Shown here one piece after another: positions 36,136 to 42,562 of a stretch of 64,000 nucleotides of DNA (the stretch's first letter is position 1; each line of letters begins with the position of its first letter). The translations under genes were made by a program, and so were the position numbers. The stretch is taken from NCBI RefSeq assembly GCF_023023025.1, contig NZ_CP095481.1, positions 3,410,001 to 3,474,000 of the forward strand, read 5' to 3'. This DNA comes from Amycolatopsis sp. WQ 127309. Its GTDB lineage: Bacteria > Actinomycetota > Actinomycetes > Mycobacteriales > Pseudonocardiaceae. Below the pieces are notes generated by a model. That model did not search any database and had not been told where the DNA came from. It saw nothing but the letters and a program-made list of their open reading frames with translations.

Positions 36136-37287
36136 CTAGGAAGCCGCGGCGTGCCTGTGCGCGGGCGTCCCGACGCCCAGCAGCTCCTCGATCGCCGCCA
36201 CCGCCAAGACGGCCGCATTGCCGTTGCCGTAAGGGTTTCCGACCTGGGCCGTGCACAGCTCGCCGCGCAGCAGGCGGGCCGCGGTGTCGGCGATGCGGGC
36301 CGTGTCCGTACCCACCAGCCACGCGCACCCCGCGTCGACGACCTCCGCGCGCTCGGTGACGTCGCGCAGGACCAGCACCGGCGTGCCGAACGTCGGCGCC
36401 TCCTCCTGGATACCGCCCGAGTCCGTCAGCACCAGCGACGCCAGCCGCAGCGCGCGGACCAGGTCCGGGTACTCCAGCGGGTCCGTCACCGTCACCCGCG
36501 GCAGGCCGCCCAGCGCGGCGTCCACCTGGGTCCTGACCTGCGGGTTCGGGTGGGCCGGGAACAGTACCTGGACGTCCGGGTGCTCGGCGACGATCAGCTG
36601 CACCGCGGCGAGCGTCCGCTCCAGCGGCTCGCCCCAGGACTCGCGGCGGTGCGACGTCACCAGCACCAGCCGCTCGCCGGCCTCCGCGATCTCCATCTCC
36701 AGCAAGGCCAGCGCTGTGTCGCGCGCCGGGAGATCGCGCGCCGCGATCTCCAGCACCGCGTCGACGATCGTGTTGCCCGTGACCGCGATGCGTTGCCGCG
36801 CAACGCCTTCCGCGCGCAGCTCGGCCGCCGCGCCGAGCGTCGGGGCGAGGTGCAGCGCGGCCAGGCGGGACACCATCTGCCGCGCGCCCTCCTCGGGGAA
36901 CGGCGCCGTGAGGTCGTGCGTGCGCAGCCCGGCCTCCAGGTGCACCACCGGGATGCCCAGCCAGAACGCGGCCAGCGCGCCCGCCAGCGTCGTCGTCGTG
37001 TCGCCCTGGACGACCAGCGCGGCCGGGGCGAGCCGGCGCAGCGCGTCGTCGAGGGCAGGCAGCAGGCCCGCCACGAGCTCCGCCTGTCCGCCGGTGACGC
37101 GCGACGGGACGTCCAGCCACGCGTCGGCGACCAGGCCGAACGGCAGCAGCGCCTGCTCGACCATGCCCGCGTGCTGGCCGCTGTGGACCAGGATCGGCCG
37201 GAGTGTCGGGTGCGCGTCCATGGCCAGCGCCAGCGGCGCGAGTTTGAGCGCTTCCGGGCGGGTCCCGGCCAGCAACATCACATCCAC
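36136..37287 (-). CDS. wecB: UDP-GlcNAc 2-epimerase (non-hydrolysing)
   Basis: Interconverts UDP-GlcNAc and UDP-ManNAc for envelope glycan synthesis. The 383-residue GT-B fold enzyme has LLAGTRPEALKLAPL, QGDTTTTLAGALAAFW, HLEAGLRTHD, TSHRRESWG and the UDP-binding TDSGGIQEEAPTFGTPVLVLRDVTER. GTG 37287 is chosen because AAGAGG lies nine bases upstream and family members begin just before the GTRPE motif; a GTG at 37308 is the alternative. It lies downstream of the anchor-protein genes on the same strand, next to a membrane glycosyltransferase, suggesting a ManNAc-containing surface glycan. Confidence 0.93.
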   Translation of the reverse strand: MDVMLLAGTRPEALKLAPLALAMDAHPTLRPILVHSGQHAGMVEQALLPFGLVADAWLDVPSRVTGGQAELVAGLLPALDDALRRLAPAALVVQGDTTTTLAGALAAFWLGIPVVHLEAGLRTHDLTAPFPEEGARQMVSRLAALHLAPTLGAAAELRAEGVARQRIAVTGNTIVDAVLEIAARDLPARDTALALLEMEIAEAGERLVLVTSHRRESWGEPLERTLAAVQLIVAEHPDVQVLFPAHPNPQVRTQVDAALGGLPRVTVTDPLEYPDLVRALRLASLVLTDSGGIQEEAPTFGTPVLVLRDVTERAEVVDAGCAWLVGTDTARIADTAARLLRGELCTAQVGNPYGNGNAAVLAVAAIEELLGVGTPAHRHAAAS

Positions 37288-37381
37288 CCCGCGGTGCCTC
37301 TTTTCCACATCGTCCAGTGTCCACGAGAATTTCCGTCCGGAGTCGCCGGCGTGCGAGGGCGCACGCCGGCGACCCCGGGTT

Positions 37382-37564
37382 TCAGTGCTCCCGCGCCCGG
37401 GAGAGCCGGCGGCTGCGGCGGTGGACGGCGATCAGCGCGACGGTCCCGAGCAGGACCAGCAGCACACCGACGGCCAGCCACCACCCGACGTCGGCCCCGG
37501 TGACGGCGAGGGTGCCCACCCCGCCACCGGCCACGCCGACGCCGGCACCTGGCATCCTGTACAC
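37382..37564 (-). CDS. Mini-protein with a sortase-type LAVTG sorting signal
   Basis: A 60-residue protein made almost only of a cell-wall sorting signal: Gly/Val-rich start, LAVTG (a form of the LAxTG motif of actinomycete class E sortases), a membrane helix of about 20 residues (WWLAVGVLLVLLGTVALIA) and a basic tail (HRRSRRLSRAREH). There is no N-terminal signal peptide. GTG 37564 has GAGG five bases upstream; ATG 37555 would be three residues shorter. It begins 11 bases after the anchor-protein gene, so it is probably translated from the same mRNA. It may be a membrane peptide partner or a remnant of a larger anchored protein. Confidence 0.6.
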   Translation of the reverse strand: MYRMPGAGVGVAGGGVGTLAVTGADVGWWLAVGVLLVLLGTVALIAVHRRSRRLSRAREH

Positions 37565-37575
37565 CCGGACCTCGC

Positions 37576-38340
37576 TCAGACCGTGCGGCGGTTGCGGAGG
37601 AAACGCGTGCCGACCGGCAGCGCGATGGCGCCGAGCAGGCCGAGCCCGACCCACAGGCCGGCGCCAGAGGCCAGCGGCATCGGCGGCGCGGCCGGGCCAC
37701 AGGTCGCCGACGACACGATCACGTCACCCGAGCCGAGCGCGCCGACGACACCGCCGAGCAGCTGCACGTGGAGCGCGTTGACCGTGAGGCTGCCGTCCTT
37801 GTTCTTGGCCTGCTCATTCAGGATGATCGTCGCGACGTTGACCAGGCCGACGGCCACCTTGACCTGGGTGTTCGGCGCCGGGTTGGCGTCGACCGCGCCG
37901 ACGCTGCCGAGCTTCGCGTCGGCCAGCGTGCTGCTGCCCTTGACGCCTTCCTGGGTGGCGGTGCAGACGGCTTCGACGGTCTTGACGCCGACGGTGCCGA
38001 GCGCGGCCTTGAGCAGCGGCAGGCCGACGTCGGCGGTGGTCGCCTTCGCCGTCACCGCGCCGGAGTCGTCGTCACGCTTGGCCTCGGCGGTGATCACCCC
38101 GGCCGTCAGGATGCCGGCCGCGTTCGCGCCGGCCACGGTGCTCGTGGTCGGGCCGGCGGTGTTGGCGACCGCGAGCGGCCCCACCTTCACCGCGGGCCGG
38201 CCGAGCAGCGTCACGTTCACGCTGACGCCGTACGCGGAACCGTCGCCGGGGGCCGCCGAAGCGGGGGCCGCGCCGGCGAGCACGACGCTCGCCACGACCG
38301 CGGCGAGCAGTCCGCCACGGCGCACGAGGGAGCTCTTCAT
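37576..38340 (-). CDS. Secreted protein with C-terminal membrane anchor, likely exosortase substrate
   Basis: A 254-residue exported protein. Residues 1-31 are a signal peptide (basic start, hydrophobic core, cut near ASA-APG). The middle is a Val/Thr/Ala-rich beta domain with two cysteines (VCTAT, SATCGP). The end is a three-part sorting signal: PMPLASGAG, hydrophobic helix LWVGLGLLGAIALPVG, then Arg-rich RFLRNRR. From memory it resembles proteins catalogued as choice-of-anchor P family. ATG 38340 has GGAGG eight bases upstream; TTG 38343 is less likely. It diverges from an exosortase gene, its probable processing enzyme. Confidence 0.8.
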   Translation of the reverse strand: MKSSLVRRGGLLAAVVASVVLAGAAPASAAPGDGSAYGVSVNVTLLGRPAVKVGPLAVANTAGPTTSTVAGANAAGILTAGVITAEAKRDDDSGAVTAKATTADVGLPLLKAALGTVGVKTVEAVCTATQEGVKGSSTLADAKLGSVGAVDANPAPNTQVKVAVGLVNVATIILNEQAKNKDGSLTVNALHVQLLGGVVGALGSGDVIVSSATCGPAAPPMPLASGAGLWVGLGLLGAIALPVGTRFLRNRRTV

Positions 38341-38623
38341 CAACTGGTCCTCCGAATTTCGCTGAGTTTCTCGGGGGTTCGCGTGGTGTGTACGACTCCG
38401 GCGCGGATCGGTCCGGCCAGCCTCGAGTCGGCACGCGAATCGACTATCGCCAACAGGGCCTCGAATAGCACATGAAATTCACCGAATCACCGGATCGGGT
38501 AATGCTTTCGGACGTCTTCGCAGGTCGAATACGGCATCACTCGGACGGTCTAGCAAGTTCGCCGCCGCACCTGCCGAATGGCCGCTTGAACCTCCATGAG
38601 AAATCGACACCGAGAGGAACGTC
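38341..38623. promoter_or_regulatory. Divergent control region between anchor protein and exosortase genes
   Basis: About 280 bases, clearly less GC-rich than the surroundings, with repeated TCGAATA pieces (near 38460 and 38524). It must hold promoters for both operons. GAGAGGA at 38612-38618 is the exosortase ribosome-binding site. No clear -10/-35 pair stands out. Confidence 0.4.
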
Positions 38624-39163
38624 GTGGCCGTAGCGAGCGCTCCGAACTCAGGGATGGCGAAGTTCCCGCTGGTCGTGGGGCTGGGCGCGCTGGCCGCCGC
38701 GGGCGCCGTCGTGGTGCTGGCCGAGCGGCTGTACCGCGAGCTGGAAGTGCAGCTGGCGGGCGCGATCCTCAACATCATCACTACATCGGGTGTTTATGTC
38801 GCCGGTGATCGGGAGTCCGTTTACTTTGGGTTGAGCGGTGCTGCTCCATTCGGGTTGAGAATGACGCCGGAATGTTCGTCGGCGTTTCTTCTGTTGCCAC
38901 TGCTCGTTGTGACGATGGCCATGCTGTGGTTCCGGCCCGCCAATGCGAAACGACTGTTCTTTTCCCTCGGCGTTTCCGTGGTCGTCGTGGTGCTGGTGAA
39001 CCAGCTGCGCATTCTCACGATCGTCGGCCTGGTCCATTGGCTCGGCCCGGACGAGGGCTACTACTGGGGGCACACGCTGCTGGGCTCGATGGTGAGCGTG
39101 TTCGGCGGCGCCGTCTCGCTCGTCCTGTTCGTCTGGCTGGCCACGCGGAAGAAGAACGCATGA
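38624..39163 (+). CDS. Exosortase/archaeosortase-family transpeptidase
   Basis: Integral membrane cysteine protease/transpeptidase that recognises C-terminal sorting signals on exported proteins. The 179-residue protein has about five membrane helices and the complete family triad: Cys84 in TPECSSAF, Arg129 in VNQLRIL (N-x-x-R) and His150 in WGHTLLGS. It is a core-only form without an extra C-terminal domain. The stretch 38770-39020 is lower in GC with codons unlike its neighbours, which hints at acquisition by transfer. It diverges from a substrate-like gene and overlaps the GT2 gene by four bases. It probably corresponds to the actinomycete type I recall as exosortase P (XrtP). Confidence 0.88.
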   Translation: MAVASAPNSGMAKFPLVVGLGALAAAGAVVVLAERLYRELEVQLAGAILNIITTSGVYVAGDRESVYFGLSGAAPFGLRMTPECSSAFLLLPLLVVTMAMLWFRPANAKRLFFSLGVSVVVVVLVNQLRILTIVGLVHWLGPDEGYYWGHTLLGSMVSVFGGAVSLVLFVWLATRKKNA

Positions 39164-40536
39164 GCGGCAAGGTCCTGCTGGCGATCACCCAGGCGTTCGC
39201 GCTGACGATGAGCGTGGCGTTCCTGGTCTACGTCGTGCTGATCGTCGTGCCGTACCTGCGCCGCAAGCCGGGCCCGGTGGGCGACCCGGCGGACTTCACG
39301 TGGCACTTCTTCGTCCCGTGCCGCGACGAGCAGACCGTCATCCGCGAGACGATCCGCTACCTGCGCACGACGTTCCGGCACGCGCACGTCTGGGTCGTCG
39401 ACGACGACTCGGAGGACCGCACCGCCCGCGTCGTCCGGATGCTGTGGCGGCGCAACGGCGGTTATGACCCGTACCTGCACCTCGTGCCGCGCGTCCGGCC
39501 CGAAGCCCGCACCGGCAAGGGTGACGCGCTCAACGCGGCCTACCGGGCTCTGAACGACTGGATGGGGCCGGACGCGGCCCGCGACGACGTCGTGGTCGTG
39601 GTGGTCGACGCCGACGGCCGCCCGGCGCCGAACTGCCTCGAGGTCTGCGCGGCGGACCACCTCTTCGGCGACCCGGGGATCGGCGCGGTGCAGCTCGACG
39701 TCCGGATGAGCAACGTCGAGACCCCGCCGCCGACGCGCAACCCGGCCGGCCGCTGGTTCGGGCTGAAGCTCGCGCAGCTGCAGGACCTGGAGTTCCGGAC
39801 GGCGATCGCGGCGATCCAGACGTCGCGCGGCTTCACCGGCACGATCTCCATGGGCGGCAACGGCCAGTTCACCCGGCTCACCGCGCTCGACTCGATCGCC
39901 GGCCCCGGCGAGCAGCCGTGGCGCGGCTCGCTGCTGGAGGACTTCGAGCTCGGCGTCCACCTGCTGACCGCGGGCTGGCGCACCGGGTTCACCCCGGATT
40001 CCCATGTGGCGCAGGAAGGTCTGTACAGCCTGCGGCGGTTCCTGGTGCAGCGCACGCGCTGGGGCCAGGGCACCATGCAGTGCGCGCGGTACCTGCGGCG
40101 GATCTGGGACTCACCGCACGTCAGCACGCTCGGCGCGGCGGAGATGATGTACTACCTCGCGCAGCCGTGGCTGCAGCTGCTCGGCTCGCTGCTGTACCCG
40201 ATCCCGTTCCTGCTGCTGATCTTCAGCACCGCCGGCGACCCGGCGCAGATGTGGACGTGGTTCACCGGCGGCGCCTGGATCCTGTTCGCGATCTACGGTT
40301 CGTTCGGCCTGCTGCCGTTCATCGTCTGGGGCCCGATCTACCAGCTGAAGTGCTTGCGCAGCCGCAATGTGCTGCGTGGCATCGGCCTGGGCTTCGCCTA
40401 CGCGGCGTACATCTACACGTTCTACGTGACGTCGTGGCGCGCCGTGTTCCGGCTGATCCGCGGCCGCAACGGCTGGGCGAAGACGCGCCGCAACACCGAG
40501 CGGACCGGGGGAGCGAAGGTCGCGCTCGACGCCTGA
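39160..40536 (+). CDS. Membrane-bound family 2 glycosyltransferase
   Basis: Processive-type inverting glycosyltransferase that would build a surface polysaccharide or glycolipid. The 458-residue protein has one N-terminal helix (about 7-31), a cytosolic GT-A domain with WVVDDDSEDRT, VVVDADGRP, catalytic LLEDFELG, and QRTRWGQG (the Q-x-x-R-W motif), then three to four C-terminal membrane helices. ATGA overlap with the exosortase gene shows coupled translation, so glycan synthesis and protein anchoring are probably linked. The stop codon begins the hairpin repeat at 40536. Confidence 0.9.
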   Translation: MSGKVLLAITQAFALTMSVAFLVYVVLIVVPYLRRKPGPVGDPADFTWHFFVPCRDEQTVIRETIRYLRTTFRHAHVWVVDDDSEDRTARVVRMLWRRNGGYDPYLHLVPRVRPEARTGKGDALNAAYRALNDWMGPDAARDDVVVVVVDADGRPAPNCLEVCAADHLFGDPGIGAVQLDVRMSNVETPPPTRNPAGRWFGLKLAQLQDLEFRTAIAAIQTSRGFTGTISMGGNGQFTRLTALDSIAGPGEQPWRGSLLEDFELGVHLLTAGWRTGFTPDSHVAQEGLYSLRRFLVQRTRWGQGTMQCARYLRRIWDSPHVSTLGAAEMMYYLAQPWLQLLGSLLYPIPFLLLIFSTAGDPAQMWTWFTGGAWILFAIYGSFGLLPFIVWGPIYQLKCLRSRNVLRGIGLGFAYAAYIYTFYVTSWRAVFRLIRGRNGWAKTRRNTERTGGAKVALDA

Positions 40537-40597: not shown

Positions 40598-42484
40598 CTA
40601 GAACGCCGGCAGGAACCGGACGTCGTCCGCCTTGACGAACGCGATCCGGTGCCCGAACTGGATCTGGACGTACTTGAGCTTGCCCTTCACGACCACGTGA
40701 TCGGCCACGTCGAACGTGGTCGCCGAGTAGTACTCCGACCCGACCACCCCGGCCGACGAGTACTTCTGCCCGGCGGCCAGCGTGTACGGCAGCGGCGTGA
40801 TCGCCTGCGGCGTGAGGTTCGCCGGGTAGGCCTCGGGTTCGGGGTAGGCGCGCCCGTACACCGGGATCGTGGCCAGCCCCGGCTTCGGCGTCACGACCAG
40901 GCCGATCGCGGGCTTGGCGACGCGCGCGTTGTGCGGGTTGTGGAACCAGCCCTTCTGGCCGAGGTACCAGATCGCCGTCCAGTCGCCGCTGGTGCCGGCG
41001 ACGGCGAACTGCTGCCCGGTGGCGGCGCGGCTGCCGACGTCGGAGACGTCCGTTGTGGACGGTCCGCCCGCGGGGTGCAGGCCGATGTCGACCAGCAGCG
41101 GCGAGGCGTCACTGGGCTGCGAGTGCAGCACGACAGCCTCGGAACCCCTCGGCGCGCAAGGGGTTCCGGCGGTGTCGCAGCCGGTGAAGAGCGGCTGGTT
41201 CTTCGCGAAGTCCGGGTCGATGGTGACCAGCGACGAGCCGGGCAGGCCGAACCCGCCGAGCGGCGCGCCCAGCAGGTCGAAGTAGTGCGACCAGTCCCAG
41301 TAGGGGCCCGGGTCCCAGTGCATGCCCGCGATCGTCGACGGGACCGTGCCCGGCACGTTGTCGTGGCCGATGATGTGCGCGCGGTCGAGCGGGATGTCGT
41401 ACTTGCGCGCCAGGTAGCCGACGAGCTTCGCGCTCGAGCGGTACATCGCCTCGGTGTACCAGGTGCCCTTCGCGGCGAAGCCCTCGTGCTCGACGCCGAT
41501 CGACTTCGCGTTGATGTACCAGTTGCCCGCGTGCCAGGCGACGTCCTTGGTCGGCACGTGCTGCGCGATCAGGCCGTCGGCCGAGCGGATGGTGTAGTTC
41601 CAGCTGACGTACGTCGGGTCCTGGGCGAGCTTGAGGACGCTGTCCCAGTAGCCCTCGGTGTCGTGGATGACGATGTGGTCGATCTTCTGGCTCACCGGCC
41701 GATTGGCCAGGTCGTGGTTGCCGTAGTCGTTGCCCGGCAGTTCCTGGTAGGGCGCCGGGACGGACTCGCAGGTGACGGTCCGCGGGCACTCGACGTTCGC
41801 CGGGTTCGCCGCGGCCTCGGCGTGCTTCGGCAGCGCGAGGCCCGGCGTGGCGGCGAGGGTGACCTGCTGGCCGTCGTCGGTGGTGCGGCTCATCCCGCTC
41901 TTGATCGTCTCGAAGACTTCGTCGGCGAACGTCTGCGCGGCGTCGCCGGTCGAGCCGCTGTAGCGCGCGACGGCGTCGTACCAGCCGGTCTGGCCGACGT
42001 GGTACTTCGCGAGCAGCGCGGCGCCGCCCCGGATGTTCTGCCGGGTGTCGGTGCGCAGGGTCCGCGCGTCGGTCTTCGTCAGCGCCGCGGCCTCGTCGAC
42101 GGTCTGCAGCCCGGTCTGCGGCGGCACGTCGGGCCCGGCGGCCGGGTGCAGCGCGGGCCGCGCGTCGTCGCCGCGCGGGTCCTCGCTGCCGACGTCGTGG
42201 TGACTGCCGGCGACCCCGGCTTCCCGCAGGTCGGTGAGGTGCATCGGGCCGTAGCCGGCGGATGCGCTGGGCGTCCCGGCGTTGAAGTCCCACCGGGATT
42301 CGAGGTAGGAGACGCCGAGCAGGACGTCCACCGGAACGCCGAACTCGGCCGCGGCGGCGGCGAAGTCCCGCTGCCGCTGATCGGTGGTGGTGCTCGCGGC
42401 GTGGGCTTGGCCGGTGAGGGCCCCGCCGAGCAGGGCGACGGCGGCGGCCAGCGCCGCCGTTCTGGAGAGCGAACGAGACGACAT
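40598..42484 (-). CDS. Secreted two-domain peptidoglycan hydrolase (transglycosylase-like plus amidase_2)
   Basis: A 628-residue exported wall hydrolase. Residues 1-30 are a signal peptide (ending AHA-AST). Residues 35-190 resemble a lysozyme-like transglycosylase domain with catalytic Glu62 in SYLESRW and the GPMHLTD segment. Residues about 255-410 are an N-acetylmuramoyl-L-alanine amidase domain with zinc ligands in VIHDTEGYW and AHIIGHDNV. The last 200 residues contain SH3-like beta segments for wall binding. ATG 42484 is favoured by GGGGG nine bases upstream; ATG 42490 is in frame. Its place beside the exosortase block may be coincidental. Confidence 0.88.
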   Translation of the reverse strand: MSSRSLSRTAALAAAVALLGGALTGQAHAASTTTDQRQRDFAAAAAEFGVPVDVLLGVSYLESRWDFNAGTPSASAGYGPMHLTDLREAGVAGSHHDVGSEDPRGDDARPALHPAAGPDVPPQTGLQTVDEAAALTKTDARTLRTDTRQNIRGGAALLAKYHVGQTGWYDAVARYSGSTGDAAQTFADEVFETIKSGMSRTTDDGQQVTLAATPGLALPKHAEAAANPANVECPRTVTCESVPAPYQELPGNDYGNHDLANRPVSQKIDHIVIHDTEGYWDSVLKLAQDPTYVSWNYTIRSADGLIAQHVPTKDVAWHAGNWYINAKSIGVEHEGFAAKGTWYTEAMYRSSAKLVGYLARKYDIPLDRAHIIGHDNVPGTVPSTIAGMHWDPGPYWDWSHYFDLLGAPLGGFGLPGSSLVTIDPDFAKNQPLFTGCDTAGTPCAPRGSEAVVLHSQPSDASPLLVDIGLHPAGGPSTTDVSDVGSRAATGQQFAVAGTSGDWTAIWYLGQKGWFHNPHNARVAKPAIGLVVTPKPGLATIPVYGRAYPEPEAYPANLTPQAITPLPYTLAAGQKYSSAGVVGSEYYSATTFDVADHVVVKGKLKYVQIQFGHRIAFVKADDVRFLPAF

Positions 42485-42562
42485 GGGCATAAACCCCCAG
42501 GGTTCAGGTGCCAGACGGTGAGAACCTAACCAGAAACTCACGCCGGGGGTAAGAGCCCGCGC

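Follow-up and report, generated by a model that had tools for sequence, protein, structure and literature searches.

An exosortase P locus of Amycolatopsis that looks like two cooperating surface modules

What receives a protein that an exosortase has cut, and which of the genes around the enzyme take part? To our knowledge, the acceptor of exosortase-processed proteins is unsettled. A locus of the soil actinomycete Amycolatopsis sp. WQ 127309 (11.1-Mb genome, single contig) poses the question through a minimal cassette of one enzyme, substrate, glycosyltransferase, epimerase, and micro-protein each, found in Pseudonocardiaceae such as Amycolatopsis. It occupies positions 36136-40536 of the window (the whole 64,000-nucleotide stretch of contig NZ_CP095481.1 that was analyzed) and consists of WecB, an LAXTG micro-protein (the "mini"), the choice-of-anchor P protein CoaP, the exosortase XrtP, and a membrane GT2 glycosyltransferase (GT). 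From gene content in relatives, the block looks like two modules, and we place at roughly 0.58 the probability that these are cooperating surface modules, one formed by WecB, GT2, and the mini and the other by XrtP and CoaP.

Relatives were collected by scanning named genomes with an XrtP alignment and keeping the best 80 of 87 (the "named loci"), which were chosen by XrtP and not by the other four genes. WecB, the mini, and CoaP lie on the minus strand and XrtP and GT2 on the plus strand, and all parts have NCBIfam names, each above the curated cut-off (exosortase P, XrtP-associated glycosyltransferase, choice-of-anchor P plus CoaP_CTERM, LAXTG_small_WW, and WecB):

36136..37308, minus strand: WecB, non-hydrolysing UDP-N-acetylglucosamine 2-epimerase, which makes UDP-N-acetylmannosamine (UDP-ManNAc); TIGR00236, 359.8 bits, cut-off 210.15; adjoins the mini in 80/80 named loci
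37382..37564, minus strand: LAXTG micro-protein, 60 amino acids (aa), with a Gly-rich N-part, LAVTG, a single transmembrane (TM) segment with WW, and a basic tail; NF058583, 87.3 bits, cut-off 65
37496..37510, minus strand: LAVTG codons, predicted class E sortase site; LAxTG in 80/80 named loci
37576..38340, minus strand: CoaP, predicted exosortase substrate with a signal-peptide-like start, an all-beta choice-of-anchor P domain, and a CTERM; NF040603, 96.2 bits (cut-off 27), and NF053845, 62.2 bits (cut-off 35)
37579..37686, minus strand: CoaP-CTERM, PPMPLASGAG plus TM helix plus RNRR tail; NF053845; ASGxG in 79/80 named loci, the 80th being masked
38341..38623, no strand: divergent intergenic region between CoaP and XrtP, from sequence
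38624..39163, plus strand: XrtP exosortase, with codons for Cys84 (38873-38875), Arg129 (39008-39010), and His150 (39071-39073); NF012139, 265.7 bits, cut-off 200
39160..40536, plus strand: membrane GT2 glycosyltransferase with the processive-type motifs VDAD, LLEDFELG, and QxxRW; NF053846, 716.3 bits, cut-off 520

Genes that stay together and genes that part

The order WecB-, mini-, CoaP-, XrtP+, GT+ is identical in 80/80 named loci. The Cys, Arg, and His of the exosortase (C-R-H) and the LAxTG of the mini are likewise present in all 80, and the WW pair and the [MVL]Y[KR] start of the mini are each kept in 79. In the window the five genes are bounded by tsaD and an Amidase_2 gene, with groES and groEL farther out; a TsaD, amidase, or GroE gene is in view in 34 of the 80 named loci and not in 46, and these differing flanks suggest that the five-gene block is kept together for its own sake. 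The original prediction, which had described the exosortase, one dedicated substrate, and glycan genes as a self-contained unit and had proposed looking for their co-occurrence in relatives, is borne out to this extent: exosortase, substrate, and GT2 stand together in 80/80 named loci, GT2 and WecB are constant partners, and the host genome holds a single XrtP match and a single CoaP-CTERM match (62.2 bits, beside XrtP).

The genera among the best 80 of 87 are Amycolatopsis, Lentzea, Actinokineospora, Saccharothrix, Actinosynnema, Umezawaea, Kutzneria, Labedaea, Solihabitans, Actinophytocola, and one "Nocardia," with the closest named matches to the XrtP of the window coming from Amycolatopsis. 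Amycolatopsis belongs to Pseudonocardiaceae (its family and that of Lentzea were checked). The cassette and neighbors of the Nocardia locus (L191, Nocardia sp. NRRL S-836) are Lentzea-like, and its genus label may be wrong. Among 120 genomes of the host's family, matches over the cut-off were found for XrtP in 20, GT in 24, CoaP_CTERM in 23, and the mini in 20, and the mini was over the cut-off in at least 126 of 390 family genomes. Among 396 genomes drawn from the phylum, XrtP or the mini passed the cut-off in the host genome only; the mini had no match in the 395 others (E <= 1e-9), and XrtP matched two other genomes weakly, at 69 and 23 bits.

The two parts separate in the loci where genes are missing. 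Among the family matches listed, 120 mini-bearing loci had wide context and were tabulated; loci without a mini (L107, L108, L110, L113, and others) lie outside this table, as do 30 further loci with 3 kb of context only (L214-L243), all of which show CoaP, the mini, WecB, and the XrtP start. Complete cassettes (GT, XrtP with C-R-H, CoaP, mini, and WecB) make up 98 of the 120; WW is changed in one of them (L297), and WecB is on the GT side in two (L314 and L318). C-R-H is intact in 98/98 wide-context loci that hold both XrtP and CoaP. In twelve loci, XrtP and CoaP are both missing and the GT stands with a mini whose motifs are complete, six of these loci being divergent (L244, L246, L247, L250, L251, and L253) and six colinear (L245, L249, L252, L254, L255, and L256). 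Three more retain an Xrt-like frame without CoaP, and the catalytic Cys is lost in all three, the catalytic positions reading HRA (L109), NRA (L248), and VHH (L324). These frames are single and open in L109 (189 aa) and L324 (200 aa) and open across the match in L248; between L109 and L248, which come from different genera, dN (nonsynonymous divergence) is 0.33 and dS (synonymous divergence) is 1.07, suggesting purifying selection, though dS is near saturation. A further five loci have neither XrtP nor an intact GT, and the mini has lost motifs in four of these (L115, L116, L258, and L259). One entry of the table, L260, was judged a false match, and another, L262, a separate XrtS-like subtype.

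These counts indicate that exosortase catalysis goes with CoaP and that the mini goes with the GT. In mini-bearing XrtP-type loci, as far as gene content tells, an exosortase with intact catalytic residues occurs only alongside CoaP, and the first module can exist without the second. The original prediction thus stands in its dedicated substrate, its constant partners, and its unit, but not in its pairing of exosortase and GT2 as the core acting on one protein, since the GT follows the mini in the 12 loci without XrtP and CoaP and in the 3 with a Cys-less Xrt and no CoaP. Because the GT is kept with the mini when CoaP is absent, a glycan on CoaP is unlikely to be all that it makes. The outcome foreseen earlier, a glycan-linked surface protein containing ManNAc, would be a possible product of the locus.

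In a tree of 89 GTs, including 57 of the 98 complete loci after near-copies were thinned, the divergent and the colinear exosortase-free loci each form a clade of their own (both 100/100), the loci with a dead Xrt fall in two places, and complete cassettes are paraphyletic. The tree calls for 6 changes, at least 4 of which are forced by well-supported branches. Nesting within complete cassettes is firm for the colinear clade and L324 and less so for the divergent clade and L109+L248; the bootstrap had not entirely converged. Exosortase-like genes (82-88 bits) adjoin the GTs of the nearest outgroup (L108 and L110), and in the one from L108 the matching motifs contain Cys, Arg, and His, which makes loss of the exosortase simpler than gain. 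L108 and L110 are themselves a different exosortase-like plus GT2 locus, with larger candidate substrates that carry Gly-rich TM segments and RRR tails and, in both, a sortase-type gene within ~5 kb.

Colinear loci without an exosortase have a protein of ~750 aa immediately ahead of the GT (L256:6187-8481 and L249:11565-13802); the L256 copy has no Pfam or NCBIfam match. Two mini-less loci, L107 (G109) and L113 (G057), are decayed copies in which the GT is truncated and the XrtP frame damaged; WecB is still there, along with a CoaP-domain protein that lacks an anchor, and no mini was found. In the window, the Amidase_2 protein adjoining the cassette (40598-42541, minus strand) is a candidate peptidoglycan hydrolase; it is found likewise in Amycolatopsis loci that share this flank and may be a mere neighbor.

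The micro-protein, the glycosyltransferase, and the exosortase pair

The mini looks like a real gene. It begins [GTG]YRMPGAGVGVAGGGVGTLAVTGADVGWW..., the start at GTG 37564 being fixed by the conserved [M/V]-Y-[K/R] opening of its relatives, and its frame in the window stays open farther upstream. Across the 80 named loci, ATG or GTG stands immediately before the Tyr, an in-frame stop lies 8 or fewer codons upstream in 37, which agrees with the absence of a signal peptide, and a Shine-Dalgarno-like site precedes 74 of the 80 starts (versus 23% at random places). In 32 Amycolatopsis loci, the median pairwise dN/dS is 0.40 for the mini, 0.32 for CoaP, 0.23 for XrtP, 0.17 for WecB, and 0.16 for the GT, counting only pairs with a synonymous difference (pS) of 0.15-0.6. 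The protein is 49-64 residues long, 20-25 of them up to LAxTG, and its median net charge of +1 up to LAxTG and +4 in the tail suggests, by the positive-inside rule, an N-out, C-in topology.

Its LAxTG, TM segment, and basic tail, in that order, match the substrate pattern of class E sortases, and SrtE recognizes LAXTG according to excerpts of PMC5148588. The host genome has ten sortase-domain matches; of the three tested, L128 is class E (238.5 bits, cut-off 160) and L126 and L127 are class F. Among the 15 CoaP-less loci that keep the GT and the mini, 8 have a sortase close to the mini, at 1.2 kb in L245, L249, L252, L254, and L256, at 2.3 kb in L109 and L248, and at 6.1 kb in L255; every sortase found up to 6.1 kb from the mini, 8 in all, scores above the class E cut-off. 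The mini is likely to be linked to the wall by sortase E, although its lack of a signal peptide departs from the usual sortase substrates.

The GT has its VDAD-type, LLEDFELG, and QxxRW motifs in 80/80 named loci; no relative of solved structure was found for it by sequence. WecB is usually present, which points to UDP-ManNAc as the donor, and GT2 would be a WecB-fed user of this sugar nucleotide, by presumably processive synthesis. The association of GT2 with the mini is strong as a genetic link and suggests that they act together. Among 14 fetched loci with weaker relatives of the GT, a WecB gene faces the GT in 12 (L340-L351), and none was seen in L352 and L353. The search for micro-open reading frames covered L340-L351, and in all 12 the GT is preceded by a short open reading frame that encodes a single strongly hydrophobic segment but lacks LAxTG. 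Counted from the first start, these frames encode 52-160 aa, which on our reading shrinks to ~50-60 aa with an inner start; NCBIfam gave no match for the L340 micro-protein. From such gene neighborhoods, WecB and a micro-protein may be older partners of the GT than the exosortase-CoaP pair.

Several features of the exosortase pair reported in the original prediction hold on direct reading: XrtP (179 aa) carries Cys84 in TPECSSA, Arg129 in NQLRILT, and His150 in YWGHTLL; it overlaps GT2, which starts within ATGA, by 4 bases; and the gene order and the PLASGAG-helix-RNRR tail of CoaP are as described. The search against exosortase models that it had recommended puts the exosortase and the anchor protein above the XrtP, choice-of-anchor P, and CoaP_CTERM cut-offs. 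Pfam is far weaker than NCBIfam here, giving 26.9 bits against a cut-off of 25.7 for XrtP and no match for CoaP. By comparison, the ATG at 38340 is a likelier start for CoaP than the preceding TTG, and the mature part is all-beta in an AlphaFold2 model with a predicted local distance difference test score (pLDDT) of 91.6. On strong inference, CoaP is very probably processed by XrtP near ASGAG.

CoaP-type domains also occur elsewhere. A paralogue in the host genome (L118:8796-9587; G000:C1, ~7.586 Mb; 70 bits), with the tail ...GAPQTGDGSLATEG, adjoins a class F sortase gene (L127), so that this domain accompanies a sortase at one locus of the genome and an exosortase at the other. In many non-Amycolatopsis loci (L166-L213, e.g., L167:2679-3347), a second CoaP-domain protein adjoins WecB or sits behind the GT; where their ends were read, these proteins have no C-terminal anchor, and L172 has two.

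A proposed mechanism and its alternatives

Building on the family identities, the conserved order, the two dependencies, and the class E sortases near CoaP-less loci, all of which the sequences show, we propose the following for the two modules. In the first, WecB would make UDP-ManNAc, from which the membrane GT2 would build a glycan of presumed ManNAc chemistry, using this nucleotide alone or with another sugar nucleotide, together with the single-pass mini. The mini, lying N-out and C-in, would be cleaved by a class E sortase at its LAxTG, leaving a short Gly-rich peptide, probably with glycan, fixed to peptidoglycan. In the second, a signal peptide would take CoaP across the membrane, where the C-terminal helix would retain it until Cys84 of XrtP attacks near ASGAG; the enzyme would then release the helix and pass CoaP on to an acceptor. 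That acceptor would most likely be the product of the first module; the constant union of the modules makes the GT-mini product our best guess. A fuller joint account is tentative and on the whole doubtful: a signal-less LAXTG micro-protein of 50-60 residues would partner, and possibly carry or prime, a WecB-fed GT2 glycan, sortase E would fix the mini to peptidoglycan, an exosortase would later hook a protein onto the glycopeptide, and pseudo-exosortases would persist as structural parts of the glycan synthase after loss of the substrate.

Several observations weigh against the proposal of two modules. The 98 of 98 loci are related loci of one family and are not 98 independent observations, and a single genus (g21) supplies 4 of the 5 loci without an intact GT, which may make those losses non-independent as well. 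Genomes of 11 of the 12 exosortase-free loci hold XrtP, CoaP, and a mini elsewhere (with the GT out of view in four), making help in trans possible. No WecB is nearby in 5 of the 6 divergent exosortase-free loci, which bears on the UDP-ManNAc donor, and L339 has an intact mini and no GT. C-R-H is kept without CoaP in L262, whose Xrt is closest to XrtS and sits beside its own CTERM-like protein as a separate subtype, and C, R, and H are kept without CoaP-CTERM in the decayed, mini-less L107. The L109+L248 branch lies near the unresolved base of the GT tree, so that the direction of loss there rests on the exosortase-like gene of L108. Against the PgaC_IcaA model, GT2 scores 36.4 bits (cut-off 422.3), and it lies far under the cut-offs of characterized GT2 models. 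Finally, because its start is set at the conserved [M/V]-Y-[K/R], the mini has no signal peptide, a usual feature of sortase substrates, as judged from that start without a signal-peptide program.

The mini might instead be an accessory membrane subunit of GT2 whose LAxTG is not a working sortase site. IcaD and PgaD are accessory membrane subunits of IcaA and PgaC, the short frames before the 12 weaker GT relatives with WecB (L340-L351) have one TM segment and no LAxTG, and the mini loses motifs along with the GT in 4 of 5 loci. We consider this explanation rather unlikely, as LAxTG is kept in 80/80 named loci and a class E sortase lies near 8 of the 15 CoaP-less loci. It is distinctly unlikely that the locus is a single unit in which the glycan of GT2 and WecB is placed on, or anchors, CoaP only and the mini is incidental. 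The five genes are united in 80/80 named loci, and the XrtG system likewise pairs a CTERM protein, an exosortase, and glycosyltransferases in excerpts of PMC12854382, but the GT and the mini persist without CoaP in 15/120 loci, with or without WecB, and the motifs of the mini are kept in 79-80 of the 80 named loci.

Very unlikely, in our estimate, is a relay in which XrtP links CoaP, through its newly made C-terminus, to the free N-terminal end of the mini, after which sortase E fixes the product to the wall. CoaP does adjoin the mini in 80/80 complete cassettes, and the conserved M/V-Y-[K/R] start and Gly-rich N-part would lie on the predicted outer face; nevertheless, the mini keeps its motifs in 15 loci without CoaP or a triad-intact Xrt, implying that it has another job there. 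Most improbable of all is that XrtP is a protease only, freeing CoaP from the membrane beside a GT and mini that are neighbors by history: in the literature, transfer by archaeosortase, too, has the standing of a model (excerpts of PMC7157517), but this explanation leaves the union of both modules across different genomic flanks without a cause.

If the tentative fuller account given above is true, the locus would represent a new mode of surface glycan and protein attachment in a monoderm, with two unrelated sortase chemistries in series within one cell envelope. The relatives that lack exosortase and substrate, and the three Cys-less Xrt-like frames, offer natural comparisons that would make the acceptor question directly testable.

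Comparison with known systems

The family is not new, as its special parts are already modeled in NCBIfam. The names and short descriptions in that database make no mention of two modules, of pseudo-exosortases, or of exosortase-free loci with GT, mini, and sortase. In open-licence PubMed Central, we found no paper on the exosortase P/CoaP-CTERM system and none on Amycolatopsis together with exosortase; by title and the start of the abstract, combinations of LAXTG, glycosyltransferase, 2-epimerase, and exosortase gave none on this system, and the matches listed from the wider exosortase literature gave none on XrtP. Since the proteins of the window exceed the curated cut-offs of NF012139, NF053845, NF040603, and NF053846, the locus is the exosortase P/CoaP/XrtP-associated GT system. 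Yet the GT model, named after the exosortase, also scores 697 bits in L247 and 667 bits in L256 (cut-off 520), at loci where no exosortase was found, and this GT belongs with the sortase-tagged micro-protein, a point of weight for annotation.

The GT has the DxD, ED, and QxxRW of PgaC/IcaA-type processive GT2 enzymes, although the similarity is weak. With the class E sorting of LAXTG proteins, as by SrtE on the chaplins of Streptomyces, the mini has LAxTG, a TM segment, and a basic tail in common, but it is unlike the usual class E substrates in its 49-64 aa, its want of a signal peptide, and its almost complete lack of cargo. In the exosortase G system of Firmicutes (XrtG, TIGR03110), a single Gram-positive locus likewise holds a CTERM protein together with its exosortase and a pair of glycosyltransferases (excerpts of PMC12854382); XrtP scores 22.5 bits against the XrtG model, below its cut-off of 102.75, and WecB and an LAXTG micro-protein are not named for XrtG in the same excerpts.

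For PEP-CTERM/EpsH systems, excerpts of PMC1569441 describe exosortase genes mostly among polysaccharide genes, many substrates, and a proposed transpeptidation, and for archaeosortase A, excerpts of PMC7157517 give a model in which cleavage forms a thioester on the Cys and the substrate then passes to a lipid amine. The present locus is like the PEP-CTERM systems of PMC1569441 in its Cys, Arg, and His, the tripartite C-terminal tail of its substrate, and its polysaccharide neighborhood. Unlike PEP-CTERM systems, however, the XrtP locus has one substrate per enzyme, a host without an outer membrane, and a sortase-type micro-protein alongside.

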